Positions 35,326-43,672 of a stretch of 64,000 nt of DNA are shown one piece after another. Made by a program: the position numbers and the translations under genes. Origin of the DNA: Ignavibacteriota bacterium (GTDB lineage Bacteria > Bacteroidota > Ignavibacteria > Tepidaquicellales > Tepidaquicellaceae); assembly GCA_026390735.1 (NCBI GenBank), contig JAPLFJ010000003.1, positions 1 through 64,000 of the forward strand, read 5' to 3'. How positions within the stretch are numbered: the first letter of the stretch is position 1; each line of letters begins with the position of its first letter. The notes under the pieces were generated by a model. It worked only from the letters and a program-made list of their open reading frames with translations, did no database searches and was not told where the DNA came from.

Positions 35326-36840
35326 TTAGTTGGCTATTCCAATTCTGGTTGGAGAAACATAACCTTTCTTTTTAACTGTTTGCATCTGTATTTCGTACTG
35401 CCTTATTAACCATTCCCTTTCAACAACGTTCTTTAACTTTTTAAGTTCTGCGAAACCTTCTTTAAGTGCGTCGAGTTTCTGGTACTTATAGAGAAGGTGT
35501 TTAAGGTACTTTGCAAAGTTAGTATGCCTTTCCATCAGCAGTTCATTACCTGCGCAATTAAGTTCGAGTGTTTTCTCGTGAATTTCAATCGTCTGTATAG
35601 CTTCTATCTTGTACTGAAGTTCATAGAAATTCTTAATCATCATCAGGTTAAAGTCCAGTTTGTAAGGAAGGTATTCCAGCGAAACCCTGATTAGATAATT
35701 GATTGAATCCTTCGAGCGGCTCTCTACGTTAGCAAGGTATGCAAGACCCATATTGTACATACACTCGGAGAGGTATTCAGGCAGTTCATCTTTGTATTCA
35801 TTGATAACTTTAAGTGCCTCGTTCTTCTTTCCGTTTCTAATCAGACCTATAACAACACTCCAGAACATTTCGTGTGTAAGATTAACGTTGGTCTTGGAAA
35901 TATAATATTTATTAAACAATATAGTTTTCTGGAGTTCAACCAATTCATCGAAAAATTCATTCTTTGCAGAAGAAAGGTTAATCTTATAAGTGCAGTAGTT
36001 CAGGAGGTTAGTAAAATGATAACTTCTTTCCTGCTGACTGAACTTTGTAAGATTGCTGTAAACCTGTTTCTTATACCTGAAATAATCATCGGATGCTTTT
36101 CCCGTAACGAGTTTGGTTGCGAGGTAATAGAGTGAAACGATAAGATGGTATTCGGTACCTTCAAGAACTTTAAGCATTTTCTCTATATCCAGAAGGTTTA
36201 CAATCTTATACAACTTATTTTTTTCGAAGTTATACTTAACATTTTCTGACTGAATAATCAGATTGTTGTAATAACTCATCATTTCAAGCAGGAAATAGGA
36301 CAGGAAGTTCACGGAAATGTTTTCCAGCACGCCATTTTCTGTTTCGAGTGTCTTTTCTTTCTCTAACGGCTGAAACTTTCTGAGGTAATTATATTTGTGA
36401 ATGTTAACCCAGTAATCTTCGTTGGCTTTTCCGACATCGATATAATTTTTGTCTTTAAGTTTCTTTTCCATATTCTCAATGTGATCAGCCAGCTGAGCGC
36501 TTAAGTTTCTATGCATAAGCTGCTGAGCAGTGAAAATATCGTGCATAAACAAATCTTCCTCGTATTTCTTCAGGGACAGAAATTCCTTCAGGACTTTTCC
36601 GAGCATTGCAATATTCTGCCTTGCTGTATTGGCATTACCTTCAGGACTTGCAGCAAATTTTATCTGTGTCAGAAGTAAATTCTCATCATACTTTTTCCCG
36701 GTGTTTCTTGTAATAACTTTATAGATACGATACATCTTTCCTGTATTTCTTAACTTGTGAAAAGTCAGGAAACTACGAAATTGTTTGTGGTCAAGTTTAG
36801 AAAACGACTTGATAATAGCAACAGAGGATAAATTTTCCAT
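35326..36840 (-). CDS. Helical-repeat protein of unknown function (paralogue of the gene at 42161)
   Basis: A 504-residue soluble, nearly all-helical protein without signal peptide. The opening (FSKLDHKQFRSFLTFHKLRN) and the following segment VLKEFLSLKKYEEDLFMHDI match the layout of the 503-residue protein encoded at 42161 (FSSEDYTQFEKFLKSPYYN, LSDLCVEFTKAEAFRNEKL). Both belong to a large family of uncharacterised Bacteroidota/Ignavibacteria proteins with an N-terminal helical domain and TPR-like repeats. The C-terminus is basic (VKKKGYVSPTRIGIAN). A role in protein interaction is inferred; nothing more can be said. Confidence 0.75.
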   Translation of the reverse strand: MENLSSVAIIKSFSKLDHKQFRSFLTFHKLRNTGKMYRIYKVITRNTGKKYDENLLLTQIKFAASPEGNANTARQNIAMLGKVLKEFLSLKKYEEDLFMHDIFTAQQLMHRNLSAQLADHIENMEKKLKDKNYIDVGKANEDYWVNIHKYNYLRKFQPLEKEKTLETENGVLENISVNFLSYFLLEMMSYYNNLIIQSENVKYNFEKNKLYKIVNLLDIEKMLKVLEGTEYHLIVSLYYLATKLVTGKASDDYFRYKKQVYSNLTKFSQQERSYHFTNLLNYCTYKINLSSAKNEFFDELVELQKTILFNKYYISKTNVNLTHEMFWSVVIGLIRNGKKNEALKVINEYKDELPEYLSECMYNMGLAYLANVESRSKDSINYLIRVSLEYLPYKLDFNLMMIKNFYELQYKIEAIQTIEIHEKTLELNCAGNELLMERHTNFAKYLKHLLYKYQKLDALKEGFAELKKLKNVVEREWLIRQYEIQMQTVKKKGYVSPTRIGIAN

Positions 36841-36947: not shown

Positions 36948-39026
36948 CTATTTCAGCATCTTTCCGTTCTCCATCTCATACGATAATCTTGTTGCTTTAT
37001 AAATATTTTTGATGGCTTCAAGCAATCCTCTTGAATCAACTGCAACCGTTCTGTTGGATTCGGTTGTGTAAATATACCTTCCCGGAAGACTTTCTATATT
37101 ACCGTCAAAAACCAGTCCGACAACTTCAGCTTTAGTGTTAATCAAAGCACTTCCCGAGTTTCCGCCGATAATATCGTTAGTTGTGATTAAATTGTACGGA
37201 GTTTCCAGTTTGAAATCCTTAGGAATATTCTTCCATCTTTCAGGTAAGTTCCATGGGAATTTCTTTCCGTGCGAGAAATACCTGTCGTAAAGCCCGAAGA
37301 ACGTGGTGTTCGGCGGTGCCATAGTTCCGTTGTAACTGTAAGTTTTAATCGTACCGTCTGAAATCCTGAGAGTTAAAGTTGCATCGGGCGGAATAGATGT
37401 ATTGTATATTTCATACAGTACCTGACCGAGCATCTGCGAATTAACATCTATTCTTGCTTCGATTTCTTTTCTTTTAGCAGTAAGTTCATCGAGTTTACTT
37501 TTAGAAGCGAGTATGAATTTTACTAAAGGATCAGTGCTTGCCCTTAAATCCGACTCTGACATTTTCGCAAGTTTAAAAGCGCCGTCTTTGGATGTTGTGA
37601 GTGAATTACTCATTATAAAATCAACTGCAGCAGACTGACTGCTGCCGTTAAAGGCTGATTTAACTATTGTGTTTTCAGCGCCAAGGTTATCATAAATTAA
37701 CTGAACATCATAGACCAGAAGACCTTTATTGTAATCGGTATCGAAATTCTCATAGGCAGCGTTTAAGATTGAATCCTTTGTTTCTTTGCCTGAAAGTGTG
37801 TTGCGTAAAATTACTTTAGTTAAGGCAACAAACCTTGACTGGGAACGGTTGGAAATATCGTAACCTGTGAGTTCACTGTAAATCTTTCCGTATTCTGCGG
37901 ATGCAGATTCTATCTCATTCCATATATTTTCATATTTACCTTTCAGTTTCGGGTCTGCATTAACTTTTACTTTTATATTTTCCTCGAAATCCTTTTTTCT
38001 TTCCATCATTACTGCATCTTTCAATGCCTTGTCCTGCCCGATAAAAACTTTCTGTGAGTTCAGGTTACCGTATAGTGCATTCTGGTATGTTGATACTTTG
38101 TCAGGATTGTTTTTCAGGAACTCAGTAAGAAAACTTACCGAATAGTTAAGTGACGCAAGTCTTGCAGGGACTGTATAATCTCTTGCGAATATAAGTTGTG
38201 CCATTGTTTTCAGACGTTCAGTGCTGCCCGGATTACCAATCACGAAGAGTGCTTCGCCTTCTGATGCACCGTTCTTACTCCAGTTGAAATGGTGAGTTGA
38301 TTTCAACGGTTGTCCGTTATCATAGACTCTGAAGAAAGCACAGTCGAAATCATATCTCGGAAATGTGAAGTTATCAGGGTCACCGCCGAAACTTGCAATA
38401 ATATTTTCAGGAGAGAAAACCAGTCTTACGTCTGTTAATCTTTTATAACAGTAAAGCATATACATACCGCCGTTATAAAAAGTAATCACATTACACTTCA
38501 AACCCATTTCACCTGAATACTTCACTTCAATTTCTTTTATCTTATCGCTTTTAAGTTTCGATTTCTCTTCATTGGTTGAACCTGCGTCCATTGCAGAAGT
38601 GATTTCCTTTGTAACGTCTATAGTTTTCTGAAGCTGGTCAACCCATAGTCCCGGAACGGGTCTTTCGTCGCCGAGCTTCTCGGCGTAGAAACCAGTCTTG
38701 CTTAAATCCTCACCAGGTTTAGTTACAGAAGAGACGTATCCCCTGCCGCAGTGATGATTTGTCATCACCAGACCATCTTCGGAAATAAAGGAAGCAGAGC
38801 ATCCGTTACCGAAACGAAGTGCAGAAAGTTTAACGTCTTCAAGCCATTCGGAAGTAGCTTTAAAACCGTATGTCTTTTCAAAATACTCAACGGGTGCGTG
38901 TTCAAAAGTCCACATCTTACCGACATCGTAAATTTCGGATTTACTGCTCTGAGCAAAGCCGGTGTTTAATGTAAAGAGAAAAGCGACGAGTAAACCCAAG
39001 AAGGAAAAAGTAATTCTGGTTTTCAT
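36948..39026 (-). CDS. S46-family dipeptidyl peptidase (DPP7/DPP11-like)
   Basis: A 692-residue exopeptidase with signal peptide (to about residue 26). The chymotrypsin-like site is split by a helical insertion: VMTNHHCGRG carries the catalytic His at about 91-92, and GGNSGSALINTKAEVVGL carries the catalytic Ser at about 624. FGGDPDNFTFPRYDFD in the middle is also characteristic of S46. These periplasmic enzymes remove dipeptides from oligopeptides, feeding peptide catabolism in asaccharolytic Bacteroidota. DPP7 versus DPP11 specificity cannot be fixed here. Confidence 0.95.
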   Translation of the reverse strand: MKTRITFSFLGLLVAFLFTLNTGFAQSSKSEIYDVGKMWTFEHAPVEYFEKTYGFKATSEWLEDVKLSALRFGNGCSASFISEDGLVMTNHHCGRGYVSSVTKPGEDLSKTGFYAEKLGDERPVPGLWVDQLQKTIDVTKEITSAMDAGSTNEEKSKLKSDKIKEIEVKYSGEMGLKCNVITFYNGGMYMLYCYKRLTDVRLVFSPENIIASFGGDPDNFTFPRYDFDCAFFRVYDNGQPLKSTHHFNWSKNGASEGEALFVIGNPGSTERLKTMAQLIFARDYTVPARLASLNYSVSFLTEFLKNNPDKVSTYQNALYGNLNSQKVFIGQDKALKDAVMMERKKDFEENIKVKVNADPKLKGKYENIWNEIESASAEYGKIYSELTGYDISNRSQSRFVALTKVILRNTLSGKETKDSILNAAYENFDTDYNKGLLVYDVQLIYDNLGAENTIVKSAFNGSSQSAAVDFIMSNSLTTSKDGAFKLAKMSESDLRASTDPLVKFILASKSKLDELTAKRKEIEARIDVNSQMLGQVLYEIYNTSIPPDATLTLRISDGTIKTYSYNGTMAPPNTTFFGLYDRYFSHGKKFPWNLPERWKNIPKDFKLETPYNLITTNDIIGGNSGSALINTKAEVVGLVFDGNIESLPGRYIYTTESNRTVAVDSRGLLEAIKNIYKATRLSYEMENGKMLK

Positions 39027-39164
39027 AATGAATAATAAAAATTTATTAAATAGTGTGTAATATTACATATTTTATGGATTCGATTCAATGGTGAATAACA
39101 GTATTAAATTGAATGTTAAGAACCTTTATTGTATATTACGTCACATTTTTAATAAAAGTTTAGA

Positions 39165-40394
39165 ATGAAAAGAATATTTACTGTACTGATAATTGTGATG
39201 TTATCAGTATTAAATGTACAATCACAGACAAAGAAGTTTCTGTTCGACGCAACAAAATACCAGACAGCAGCAAATGCAGACTGGGTTATTGACGAAAATC
39301 TTTCAGGAAGCACTTATGTTACACCAAGATATCCGACCCCTTTGCAGTCGACAATTACATCAACGACTGCTGAAACTTACTGGACAGGCGCACTTTCTTC
39401 GTGGGGAATCGCACTCGTGAAACTTGGTCATCAGGTGGAATCGCTTCCTGTGGGAACGGCAATTACATACGGGAACGCAAGCAATCCTCAGGATTTATCA
39501 AACTATAATGTATTCATAGTAGACGAACCAAATTCACCTTTCACTGCCACAGAAAAGACGGCAATGCTGAATTTTGTTTACAACGGCGGCGGACTGTTTA
39601 TGATATCGGACCATAACAATGCAGACAGAAACGGAGACGGATGGGATGCACTTGCAGTGTGGAATAATTTTATGAGAACAAACTCGGTTGGTAATTTACC
39701 GTTCGGATTTAAGTTTGATTCATTGAGCTTTTCAGAGACTTCAAACAATGTTCTTTCTGCCTGGTCTTCAAACCCAATACTCAACGGACCACAGGGAGCA
39801 GTAAACCAGGTAATGTGGAGTGCAGGTACTTCAATGACTATTTATCCGGCAATAAATCCAAATGTTAAAGGACTTGTCTGGAGAACAGGTGTAGCACAAG
39901 GCTCAACAAGCCTTTTATGTATATCATCAACATACGGAACAGGCAGAGTGGTTGCATTTGGAGACAGTTCACCAGCGGATGATGGTTCAGGTTCACCGGG
40001 CCATACATTATACAACGGCTGGTTAGTAGATGCGGGCGGAAATCATGCAAGGCTTCACCTGAATGCATCATTATGGCTGGCAAAACTAACGGGAGTATCA
40101 GGAATAGAAGAAAACAATACACCAGTAAAGTTTTCGCTTGAACAGAACTTCCCGAATCCTTTCAACCCAACGACGAATATTAAGTATTCAATATCAAAAA
40201 GTTCAGACGTATCGGTAAAGGTTTTTGATATTGACGGAAAAGAAGTAGCAGAATTAGTGAATGAATTTCAGGTAAACGGAAGTTACAGTGTTAACTTCAA
40301 CGCAGCAAAGTACAACCTTGCGAGCGGAGTTTATTATGCAGTGCTGAACGCATCGGGCAACAAAGAAACGATAAAGATGCTGCTTACGAAATAG
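39165..40394 (+). CDS. T9SS-sorted secreted protein with GATase1-like domain
   Basis: A 409-residue protein with signal peptide (to about residue 21). Residues about 25-300 resemble a DUF4350/GATase1-like Rossmann fold: LSNYNVFIVDEPNSPFTATE, FVYNGGGLFMISDHNNADRNG and RVVAFGDSSPADDG. The last 85 residues are a T9SS type A domain (LEQNFPNPFNPTTNIKYSI to ETIKMLLTK), diverged from those of the array at 44-56 kb. Likely a surface or released protein; substrate unknown. The Asp-rich loop could bind calcium. A terminator follows at 40502. Confidence 0.85.
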   Translation: MKRIFTVLIIVMLSVLNVQSQTKKFLFDATKYQTAANADWVIDENLSGSTYVTPRYPTPLQSTITSTTAETYWTGALSSWGIALVKLGHQVESLPVGTAITYGNASNPQDLSNYNVFIVDEPNSPFTATEKTAMLNFVYNGGGLFMISDHNNADRNGDGWDALAVWNNFMRTNSVGNLPFGFKFDSLSFSETSNNVLSAWSSNPILNGPQGAVNQVMWSAGTSMTIYPAINPNVKGLVWRTGVAQGSTSLLCISSTYGTGRVVAFGDSSPADDGSGSPGHTLYNGWLVDAGGNHARLHLNASLWLAKLTGVSGIEENNTPVKFSLEQNFPNPFNPTTNIKYSISKSSDVSVKVFDIDGKEVAELVNEFQVNGSYSVNFNAAKYNLASGVYYAVLNASGNKETIKMLLTK

Positions 40395-40436
40395 AACAGA
40401 GCGCACAAAGAATGAAGAGAAGAACGCACACTGTAA

Positions 40437-40497
40437 AACATGATTAAAACTGATTATCACTGATTAAGAGATTTTTTAGGCTAAGAGCAAAAGATTT
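40437..40497. repeat. Degenerate dispersed intergenic repeat (element D, copy 2)
   Basis: AACTGATTATCACTGATTAAG is a pair of near-repeats of 'CTGATT', followed by TTTTTTAGGCTAAGAGCAAAAG. The second half matches the copy at 768-833 at the TTAGGCTAAGARCAAA word and, more loosely, the copy near 60059. Confidence 0.5.
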
Positions 40498-40501
40498 TCA
40501 T

Positions 40502-40528
40502 AAAAGCCGGTTAAATGCCGGCTTTTTT
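40502..40528 (+). terminator. Rho-independent terminator
   Basis: AAAGCCGG (40503-40510) pairs with CCGGCTTT (40518-40525) over a seven-base loop, ending in a run of six T. It lies between the plus-strand stop at 40394 and the convergent gene ending at 40550. Confidence 0.85.
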
Positions 40529-40549
40529 ATTGGCAATATTTAATGCGTG

Positions 40550-41305
40550 CTATACTAAACCATCATCATCGACAGGTTTTGACTGATTACCGGGCAGAAG
40601 CATATTTTCTGAAACAAAATATGTAATCTCCGAAAAGCCAGTATCAGAATACTCGTATTTATTCTTCAGTTCATTGAACTTAATCACTGCTACCATAGCG
40701 TGCCTTTTCTCTGCATAATCGGCATATTGTCTTGAAATACCATCATACCTTGAAATAATATGAATAAAGTCATCAGCAGGTTCTTCCTCTATCCTGTGAA
40801 CTCTAAAAGCAGAGTAAAACTCTTTTGGGAAAGTGGGATGAACAATCTTTTCAAATAATAGGAACAAAAACACATCATACGGCGGTTCAAGAACTTTCGG
40901 GTTTGCCCTGTTCAGTTTGAAATCAAAACTAACTCTGTAGTTATGAATCTCCACATTCTTAACTTCAAGTACATTATCGCTTTTGGGAGTGATACCGCAA
41001 CCAGGTAAAAGTTCTTCGTGTGTGACCAGCTTCGAATTGCGTTTAATTACTTTTGTATTATCATTCAGACCTTCTGCATCAACGGCTTTCCAGAAAGTAC
41101 GCAGTTCAGTATGTCTTCGGATTTCGTGACTGAACTGCTGTATTCTTTTGAACCTTACACGGTTATCCTTTGCAGCCTTAGTCTGATTAGCATTAATCTT
41201 TTCCGGCTTCCTGGAAACATATATCTCGCCGTACCTTTTCCTTGCGACAATGGTTCCGATTTTACCTCTGAGAAATCCTAACACACCACTATCAAAACGT
41301 GCCAT
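40550..41305 (-). CDS. DUF6266-like protein
   Basis: A 251-residue protein. The N-terminus MARFDSGVLGFLRGKIGTIV followed by ARKRYGEIYVSRKP resembles the DUF6266 opening (a Gly-rich 'GKVG.VV' stretch then an aromatic and 'RS.P'). The remainder is mixed alpha/beta with no recognised motif. Such proteins are frequent and unstudied in Bacteroidota. There is no signal peptide. The assignment rests on the first 60 residues. Confidence 0.6.
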   Translation of the reverse strand: MARFDSGVLGFLRGKIGTIVARKRYGEIYVSRKPEKINANQTKAAKDNRVRFKRIQQFSHEIRRHTELRTFWKAVDAEGLNDNTKVIKRNSKLVTHEELLPGCGITPKSDNVLEVKNVEIHNYRVSFDFKLNRANPKVLEPPYDVFLFLLFEKIVHPTFPKEFYSAFRVHRIEEEPADDFIHIISRYDGISRQYADYAEKRHAMVAVIKFNELKNKYEYSDTGFSEITYFVSENMLLPGNQSKPVDDDGLV

Positions 41306-41400
41306 AATAAATTGTTTATTTAATGTTAAAATACGAAAAAGAATATTAGGTTTGAATGAAATAATGCTGATGACGCGAAAATATTTTCCTTAAAAATGAC

Positions 41401-41431
41401 TTGACAAGTAAAAGATATTTTAGTATATTTG
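41401..41431 (+). promoter_or_regulatory. Bacteroidota-type promoter for an unassigned transcript
   Basis: TTG (41401-41403; also TTGACA), a 20-base spacer and TATATTTG (41424-41431) fit the consensus exactly. Transcription would begin near 41437. The nearest convincing plus-strand gene starts over 700 bases later. Confidence 0.65.
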
Positions 41432-41445
41432 TAATCATTCATAAT

Positions 41446-41497
41446 CAGAGGACAGCATCCTGAGAAGTCAAACTGACTGCTACTAGCCCTCTGACAG
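41446..41497 (+). ncRNA. Candidate structured RNA or 5' leader
   Basis: Just after the predicted start site, TCAGAGG (41446-41452) pairs with CCTCTGA (about 41490-41496). Enclosed are AGC/GCT and an AGTCA-AAC-TGACT hairpin, giving a nested two-stem fold of about 50 bases. No known riboswitch or RNA family is recognised. It could be the head of a small RNA or a regulatory leader. Confidence 0.35.
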
Positions 41498-41533
41498 ACC
41501 GAGAAACAACCCTTCAAAAAAAGAATCAGTAAA

Positions 41534-41710
41534 ATGGCGCAGTGGTGGCGCACACGTGACGCAGTTTTGGCGCAGATGTCTGCAATAAATTGGCGTAGAG
41601 CTAACTTTAAGAACACTAATAGCATACTAAGAACCACCTGGAAATGGCATACTTTTCACCTTATAATCCAAATGCAGGGCACAAAGAATTTACCGCTATA
41701 CAAGACTTAA
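41534..41710 (+). CDS. Weak 58-codon frame, Trp-rich, possibly not coding
   Basis: A frame starting MAQWWRTRDAVLAQ and ending MQGTKNLPLYKT follows the promoter and hairpin. It has five Trp in its first 40 residues and matches no family I know. An 11-base repeat runs through its 5' part. Because 11 is not a multiple of three, the repetition is in the nucleic acid and not in the peptide. That argues against a protein-coding role. Confidence 0.2.
   Translation: MAQWWRTRDAVLAQMSAINWRRANFKNTNSILRTTWKWHTFHLIIQMQGTKNLPLYKT
41535..41595. repeat. Phased 11-bp tandem repeat, core TGGCGCA
   Basis: TGGCGCA occurs at 41535, 41546 and 41568, with TGACGCA at 41557, giving four units at exact 11-base spacing. 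A partial TGGCG follows at 41591, two periods after the last. The spacing is about one DNA helix turn, so sites would lie on one face. It resembles an iteron or operator array; as RNA it would be a repeated UGGCGCA motif. Confidence 0.6.
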
Positions 41711-41963
41711 TATCTATTTTGTAACTTCATTATTTAGTTTACACCAGAGTACAGGAAGACTATTAAACGGGCAGCTTACTCAGGACAGAGCAGCGCAAAC
41801 CGAATATTCGCCGTGGAGGACATCAATTCCCCGGAGAGATTAACAAACCAGAAACAGTTACTGCAATTCCCAGCGAGACAGTTCTTGCGTTAAAAAAAAT
41901 AAACACTATTAAAAAATAATGTCTTGCAAATAAAAACAAATATTGATAACTTAAAACATCGGG

Positions 41964-41991
41964 AAAGTTTTTAAACAGAATTAAAAACTTT
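41964..41991. terminator. AT-rich hairpin, possible terminator
   Basis: AAAGTTTTTAA (41964-41974) pairs perfectly with TTAAAAACTTT (41981-41991) over a six-base loop. There is no G+C-rich stem or clear T-run after it, so termination is only possible. It lies between the phased repeats and the gene at 42161. Confidence 0.35.
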
Positions 41992-42160
41992 AGATATGAC
42001 AGGACACAATTGGGGTTGGGATTTAGAATGTAGATTCATGGAATCAGCGTTTTAAATTGTAACCCTTTTTGTGTTTAAAAGAGGATAGTAGACTTAACTA
42101 ATGTTAAATTTATTGTAAAGTATTAAACCCATATTTTTAAGAAATTACTTTGATATATAT

Positions 42161-43672
42161 ATGAAAATACCTGAGTTGTTTCACCATCTTGAATATTTTT
42201 CTTCTGAGGACTACACGCAGTTTGAGAAGTTTCTGAAATCGCCATACTATAATTCGATTAAAGCATATGGGAATATATTTACAATTATAAAGGATCACAA
42301 AAAATACGTAGAGGAAAAGAAATATTCCGAACTGAAATCTGCAATAGTAAAAGAGACAGGGTATTCGGAAAAGACAGTGAGTAAAAGTTTGTCACACCTG
42401 AGTGATTTATGTGTTGAGTTTACGAAGGCAGAGGCATTCAGAAATGAGAAACTAAAAGGTAATATAATACACGGGACATATTTGCTTCTGAAAGGAAATA
42501 TGGGACTCCTGAACAAAAGAGTCGGTATTTTAGAAGACATGCTTAAAGACCAGAATCATTATAATCAGGAAGTATTTCTGGATTTGTATGACTTTAATAA
42601 GTTGAAATATAATGTATTTCATTTTAGTGAGGAAAGTTTTGACCCTATTTCAAAACTTGAGAATAAAAAGAGATATACTATTGAATCTTCAAGTAACCTG
42701 ATAGTATTCACTCTCGCATCGCTTACAATAAACCTGATAAATTACGTATTGCAATGTGACGGTGATGATAAGGAGCAGAGTAAATACACTTTTAACCTGG
42801 AAAAGATGTACGGAATTATGCAAACCCCCGAATATAAATCTTACAATAGCTTTCAAAAGACTACAATAACTTTATTCTATAAAATATATAAATTGTTCAG
42901 TGATATAAGAAATGACGGATTATATATAGATTATAAAAAGTACTTCAATAAAGTAAAAGGAATGTACAGCGATGAATTTAAGATAACGAACATTAACTTG
43001 CAAATGACATATTCTGCAATGCGTTCAAGAGTATTGGATAAAGAAAAGCTTTTCTTTAATGAATCATTCAATTTGCTCTACGAATATTTAGACGGCAATT
43101 ATTACAAAACGGACAAAGTTGAATTTCTTCATCCCACTTTATACAGGAATTACGTAATAAACTGTGTGCACAGAAAAGAAAAGGAAATGCTGAAAAGACT
43201 TATCGATAAACAAACTGATAAATTAAACCCATCGGACAGAATCAACATGAAGAACTTTGCGATGGGATTTTATTGCCTTCTTAACAAACAATTTGACCAT
43301 GCGTTAAGACATATAAACAGATTGGATATACAAAGATTCTTTTATAAGATTGACATTCAGACATTAAAGATAAAATTGTTTTACGAAAAGAACGATTTAG
43401 TAGAGATGAAAAACATAATTCATAATTTTAAAGAATATCTTCTTGAAAACAAATCCGCGGTAAAGCATGAAGAAGCAAAATATTTTGCAATGCTAAAGAA
43501 CTTAGAACTCCTTATTCTTGAAAGAAACAAATATGAGAAGAGGAGCAATATTAGCGGAATAGAATTTCTGAGGAAGAAAATTGAAAGAGAGCCGGGATTT
43601 AATATTCGCTCATGGGTAATGGAAAAAATTGACGAATTTATAAAAGATCATTACAAGAGAAACAAAACATAA
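42161..43672 (+). CDS. Helical-repeat protein of unknown function (paralogue of the gene at 35326)
   Basis: A 503-residue soluble helical protein. The start MKIPELFHHLEYFSSEDYTQ and the segment FEKFLKSPYYNSIKAY fit the N-terminal signature of a large uncharacterised Bacteroidota/Ignavibacteria family ('FLRSPYFN'-type). The remainder is made of helical pairs resembling TPRs and ends in basic residues (KDHYKRNKT). It shares length and layout with the minus-strand protein at 35326-36840 but is clearly diverged. It lies directly before the T9SS array, with no obvious operon link. Confidence 0.75.
   Translation: MKIPELFHHLEYFSSEDYTQFEKFLKSPYYNSIKAYGNIFTIIKDHKKYVEEKKYSELKSAIVKETGYSEKTVSKSLSHLSDLCVEFTKAEAFRNEKLKGNIIHGTYLLLKGNMGLLNKRVGILEDMLKDQNHYNQEVFLDLYDFNKLKYNVFHFSEESFDPISKLENKKRYTIESSSNLIVFTLASLTINLINYVLQCDGDDKEQSKYTFNLEKMYGIMQTPEYKSYNSFQKTTITLFYKIYKLFSDIRNDGLYIDYKKYFNKVKGMYSDEFKITNINLQMTYSAMRSRVLDKEKLFFNESFNLLYEYLDGNYYKTDKVEFLHPTLYRNYVINCVHRKEKEMLKRLIDKQTDKLNPSDRINMKNFAMGFYCLLNKQFDHALRHINRLDIQRFFYKIDIQTLKIKLFYEKNDLVEMKNIIHNFKEYLLENKSAVKHEEAKYFAMLKNLELLILERNKYEKRSNISGIEFLRKKIEREPGFNIRSWVMEKIDEFIKDHYKRNKT

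Follow-up and report, generated by a model that had tools for sequence, protein, structure and literature searches.

Operators of the PhoB/OmpR type are made of direct repeats about one helical turn apart and lie upstream of genes. The CsrB/RsmZ sponge RNAs and the TRAP-binding RNAs carry many copies of a short motif. In type III toxin-antitoxin systems (ToxIN), repeats of 34-48 nt are co-oriented with the gene of an endoribonuclease toxin. For RepB of plasmid pMV158, replication iterons in the form of 11-bp direct repeats have been described (PMC4753449). The locus analysed here has four 11-nt direct repeats with the core TGGCGCA, situated in a 64-kb stretch of DNA from an Ignavibacteriota bacterium (the window). 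A first-pass annotation had read these repeats as a phased array for cooperative protein binding, as DNA or as RNA, and had supposed that it explains nothing else nearby. That reading overlooked the dispersed copies of the array, its candidate partner protein and the recurrence of such arrays across the phylum.

A dispersed element of about 300 nt

The array was found to form the 3′ part of an element of about 300 nt that occurs in dispersed copies and consists of a strong promoter, a stem (P1), an A-rich linker and the array. Thus, the array does not stand alone: the promoter, the P1 stem, the linker and a divergent gene all belong to its element. The features of the window locus are as follows.

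40550-41305, minus strand: divergent gene for the candidate partner of the array, a protein of 251 aa whose basic N-terminal domain is homologous to DUF6266 and whose C-terminal domain resembles Ig/FN3
41400-41431, plus strand: promoter, with CTTGAC at 41400-41405 and the -10 box TATATTTG at 41424-41431
41445-41451, plus strand: 5′ strand of the P1 stem, TCAGAGG, pairing with 41488-41494
41452-41487, plus strand: inner part of the stem-loop domain, near-constant in length and variable in sequence in the alignments
41488-41494, plus strand: 3′ strand of the P1 stem, CCTCTGA, pairing with 41445-41451
41495-41534, plus strand: A-rich linker containing CAACCCTTCAAAAAAAGAATCAG, the most conserved block between copies
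41535-41578, plus strand: A array, four 11-nt units with the core TGGCGCA
41579-41633, plus strand: B part, degenerate units in the same 11-nt register
41717-41726, plus strand: conserved 3′ motif TTTTGTAACT, located at the end of the element

The units of the A array are TGGCGCA at 41535 and 41546, TGACGCA at 41557 (one mismatch) and TGGCGCA at 41568, so that the exact 11-base spacing reported at first is borne out. When four 7-mers with one mismatch at most and a constant gap of 8-20 were sought, this array was the sole match in the window, and 40 dinucleotide shuffles contained no comparable four-unit array at any of the 13 gaps. The units of the B part read TCTGCAATAAA, TTGGCGTAGAG, CTAACTTTAAG, AACACTAATAG and CATACTAAGAA, and their register is clear in the copies at L045, L047 and L009, which have NNNNNNTAGAG units. 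The partial fifth unit that had been placed two periods on is TGGCGTA at 41591, which lies 23 nt past the fourth unit and is one base out of register.

The CTTG and TATATTTG-like boxes are equally spaced in the good copies, including the one at L065. In these copies P1 begins about 10-15 nt after the -10 box, the linker follows the pattern CAACCYTTCAAAAAAAGAATCA, and the array starts at a near-constant distance of about 110-112 nt downstream of the -10 box. The 3′ motif is found at about +285 in several copies. The sequence of P1 differs between copies, yet it pairs in nearly all of them; the mean energy of the cognate strands is -10.7 kcal/mol, versus -6.1 kcal/mol for strands swapped between copies (permutation p = 1e-5). 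That P1 stays paired while its sequence changes is the evidence for a function of the element as RNA. With the Rfam 15 covariance models, only sub-threshold chance matches were obtained in 39000-43000, none of them on the element, and a known RNA family was rejected.

In a genome search, pieces of this intergenic region were found elsewhere in the same Ignavibacteria genome. The array piece is about 80-86% identical at C39, C42 and C37, versions that have diverged further exist at C51, at C55 and again elsewhere on C42, and a second species of the genus has at least five more copies. Eleven copies of the element were used to build a covariance model, which gave eight matches in the genome of the window (seven good ones and the degenerate L060) and six in this second species. 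The other three congeners and the rest of the order gave no match, so that two of the five genomes of the genus have the element. The array of a copy begins with four or five 11-nt units, after which more units continue in phase; compared with L009 and L045, L010 is shorter by exactly one 11-nt unit. The core is uniform within an array and differs between copies (TGGCGCA, TRRCGTA, TRRCGTG or AGCGCA). The array of the window, which had been proposed for a search elsewhere, is present at L009, L010, L011, L042 and L045.

About half of the copies are solo (L009, L010, L011, L042, L045 and L048), while the copies in the window and at L012, L013, L014, L047 and L065 are linked to a gene. The solo copies at L009-L011 carry the TGGCGCA core, as does the gene-linked copy of the window; therefore, the window protein would be their natural candidate partner. 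L010 and L045 are an orthologous locus in two species with the same flanking genes, and both retain the element. Thus, the loss of the array beside conserved flanking genes, named in the first-pass annotation as a refutation, did not occur here; the window locus has no syntenic counterpart in the congeners lacking the element, and this comparison therefore applies to L010/L045 only.

Some neighbouring features were also observed. At L010, a run spaced by 11/22 nt with the core AATACAC/ATATAG lies further downstream (about +370 to +450, counted from the -10 box); it is partly common to L009 and is perhaps a second array. On the reverse strand of L020, from about 1572 onward, a promoter precedes a run of 11-nt periodicity whose core, GTCC(C/A), is unrelated; this may be a distant member of the element. 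A gene for an IS110-family transposase lies at L010 4419-5450, some 0.8 kb downstream from the solo copy; as it was not seen at the other copies, the idea of a bridge RNA was dropped. The window holds another dispersed repeat, some 180 bp long (41906-42085), which is 73-86% identical to sequences at L014, L015, L016, L017, L018 and L019. This repeat has no Rfam match and sits upstream of a paralogous gene for a protein of about 500 aa in both the window and L015. The window gene (42161-43672) encodes an uncharacterised 503-aa protein (MKIPELFHHLEYFSSEDYTQFEKFLKSPYY) without a Pfam family, with paralogues at L013 and L015 and a distant one at 35620-36804 of the window.

The divergent gene and its relatives

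In six copies of the element, the divergent gene is found at a near-fixed distance (about -116 to -879 from the -10 box). The proteins at the other gene-linked copies are 40-45% identical to the window protein. The N-terminal 97 residues have a net charge of about +11 on average, and the remainder about -4. An AF2 model (pLDDT 89) has short beta strands, three helices and an Ig/FN3-like C-terminal sandwich, the N-terminal domain being alpha/beta and basic. By hhalign, residues 1-95 of the family are homologous to DUF6266 (PF19781; probability 98.1, E 1.3e-13), with the pattern GxxxGKxG... The PF19781 model itself gave no significant match to the window protein and no match in the whole genome of the window, and it is absent from the families matched by 52 relatives. 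A known protein family was rejected, as Pfam, NCBIfam and PADLOC gave no match to the window-clade proteins and PHROG gave two weak unnamed ones. In fold comparison, the C-terminal Ig/FN3-like sandwich alone matches, at a middling level (best Z 7.0). The N-terminal domain by itself gave nothing convincing among known folds and matched no known nucleic-acid-binding fold, which does not make its fold new. Viral structures included no convincing match to the candidate partner protein, and a search of plasmid and phage sequences with one DUF6266 relative as the query gave no match. This uncharacterised protein looks able to bind DNA or RNA.

Is the pairing of such a gene with an 11-nt array common? 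With the family profile, 18 genes were found in the genome of the window and 14 in the second species; about 14 further genomes of the class have one or a few each. Autocorrelation was calculated over the 500 nt upstream of 53 family genes of the class: the best lag is 11 for 31 of them and 22 for another 8 (39/53 together), while in the gene bodies of the same family it is 11 in none of 53. In upstream regions of unrelated ORFs, lag 11 was best in 4/89 and lag 22 in 7/89 (11/89 together), these controls having been drawn from the window and neighbouring loci of one genome and the family genes from many genomes. Pfam DUF6266 genes were found in about 6% of the genomes sampled from the phylum (24 of 395). 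Upstream of them, the best lag is 11 in 22/39 and 10 in five more, with clear arrays such as TAGCATATAGT (L143) and TATATCCTTTG (L157). For about a quarter of the class genes and nearly half of the DUF6266 genes, the 500 nt examined contain neither an 11-nt nor a 22-nt signal.

Each array has a private core, for example ACCGCA seven times (L100), CAATACT (L118), GGTCGA seven times (L116), or ACGGCA four times and then TCGAG five times (L095). Arrays are alike where the proteins are closely related and unlike for distant proteins. Some adjoin the start codon directly, and others lie as far as about 300 bp upstream of it. In their polarity with respect to the gene, distant arrays weakly agree (flip test p 2e-4), though general strand composition may account for part of this. 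An outward promoter is present in 7/7 gene-linked copies of the close clade and at few other loci; at distant loci, a consensus outward promoter is mostly absent. The sequence upstream of distant arrays folds weakly better than shuffled sequence (mean z -0.9), and no selection on the arrays for a structured or an unstructured state was detected. Judged from these sequences, the pairing of a protein gene with a private 11-nt array across many bacterial families looks like an undescribed genetic system.

Several distant loci have peculiarities of their own. Upstream of the DUF6266 gene at L130, array units in both orientations make up a perfect inverted repeat about 28 bp long. At L128, also upstream of a DUF6266 gene, an array with a 10-nt period (GACTGGTTTT...) precedes an 11-nt one. 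A G-rich motif (GGGGGG, GGGGGTGAGCGGGG) lies between gene and array at L094, L095, L107, L111 and L118.

A proposed protein-binding platform and its alternatives

The reading that I favour, with a probability of roughly 45%, is that the window element gives rise to a small RNA in which the array serves as a multivalent, locus-specific binding platform for the cognate DUF6266-like protein. The gene of this putative RNA would comprise the promoter, the P1 stem-loop, the linker and, as its 3′ half, the 11-nt array. Each 11-nt unit may be the landing site for one protomer, which would bind via its basic N-terminal domain. The RNA could thus gather several copies of the protein, perhaps for titration, for assembly of a ribonucleoprotein or for feedback on the gene of the protein. 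Each protein/array pair in a genome would have its own core motif, and solo RNAs with the same core would act in trans. For the window clade, RNA is favoured because of the promoter, the covarying stem and the solo copies. As a general model it is weakened because distant loci mostly lack an outward promoter, their arrays lack selected structure, and L130 has units in both orientations. It was also counted against RNA that the N-terminal domain matches no known nucleic-acid-binding fold and that 11 bp also suits DNA. In sum, the initial idea of a cooperative or multivalent array for a putative protein survives in both its DNA and its RNA form, RNA being preferred at the window locus.

The principal alternative, which is less probable and yet a serious contender, is that the arrays are operators or iterons. 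The DUF6266-like protein would then recognise double-stranded DNA, with one 11-bp direct repeat as a site on each helical turn, and would control its own gene, while the P1 RNA of the window clade would be a separate passenger. The position of the arrays upstream of the gene, the closeness of 11 bp to one turn of B-DNA and the lack of an outward promoter at most distant loci are consistent with this, and the perfect inverted repeat of L130 suits DNA better than single-stranded RNA binding. However, the array of the window clade lies about 110 nt past a strong promoter and behind a covarying stem even in solo copies with no gene nearby, and the polarity of the arrays relative to the gene is conserved beyond chance, perhaps partly owing to a general strand bias. 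It is unlikely that the array RNA pairs with or titrates something else, either a different RNA-binding protein or, through its repeated 7-nt seeds, mRNAs. Gene-less solo copies would agree with this, as would the earlier idea of a sponge, but the arrays are linked to one protein family phylum-wide and the divergence of their motifs tracks that protein. Even less probable is a non-autonomous mobile repeat or decaying repetitive DNA with no cellular function. The dispersed copies, their patchy presence within the genus and the degenerate L060 point in that direction, whereas very divergent copies keep the P1 pairing, the length and the register, and the orthologous copy at L010/L045 persists in two species. 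Finally, a 58-aa ORF (41534-41710) begins at the first unit, but a short protein or other coding repeat can be dismissed, as the 11-nt period shifts the frame at every unit, in line with the initial annotation, and in-frame stops occur in L010 (ATGGCGCAGTAG) and L012 (ATGGCGTAG).

Extending the platform reading to the phylum, I would propose, at slightly less than even odds, that Bacteroidota/Ignavibacteria have a class of orthogonal protein-nucleic acid pairs, that each DUF6266-superfamily protein recognises its own 11-nt unit, present about 4-12 times in a non-coding array beside its gene, and that some lineages carry the array on a structured RNA, which also acts solo in trans. An anonymous protein family, which is found in a minority of genomes but in many families of the phylum with up to 18 homologues per genome, thereby gains a testable nucleic-acid partner. 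If the proposal is true, the arrays would provide a large collection of natural recognition codes of 11 nt, each private to its locus and legible directly in the sequence. They would also represent a new type of RNA or DNA array, distinct from CRISPR, iterons and toxin-antitoxin systems.

Comparison with known systems

In the literature searched, which left out most subscription papers and preprints, there was no relevant description of such 11-nt repeats or of DUF6266, and DUF6266 is unnamed there. The window clade resembles DUF6266 (PF19781) in that its N-terminal 95 residues are homologous and DUF6266 genes also bear 11-nt arrays, while no Pfam or NCBIfam model recognises the clade. ToxIN is similar in that a repeat-array RNA, putative here, adjoins the gene of its cognate protein. 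However, the repeats here are 11 nt long, the gene is divergent and the protein is unlike any known family.

The CsrB/RsmZ and TRAP RNAs are likewise multi-motif RNAs, comparable to a small RNA that would gather several protein copies. The present element differs in its exact 11-nt register, its private unit motif and its divergent partner gene, and there is no CsrA or TRAP. The repeated GGA in hairpin loops of the Csr type is absent, as the units (TGGCGCA etc.) contain no GGA and the arrays have no selected structure. PhoB/OmpR operators share the repeat spacing and the upstream position; in contrast, the arrays here have more units (4-12) and a locus-private motif, and the protein has no recognised winged helix.

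Iterons are similar in being tandem 11-bp direct repeats that are read by the product of the neighbouring gene, the binding of that product being putative here. As in iterons and operators, tandem direct repeats near one helical turn adjoin the gene of a putative cognate protein. Here, however, the arrays appear to be chromosomal and are many per genome with different cores, and in the window clade they are part of an element made of promoter, stem and array. The genes listed next to the copies resemble ordinary chromosomal ones, and no replication gene was noticed among them. If the arrays are DNA operators after all, the novelty would be less and the system closer to a known kind. The novelty rests on the combination of private 11-nt arrays, a dedicated protein family and a structured RNA carrier.
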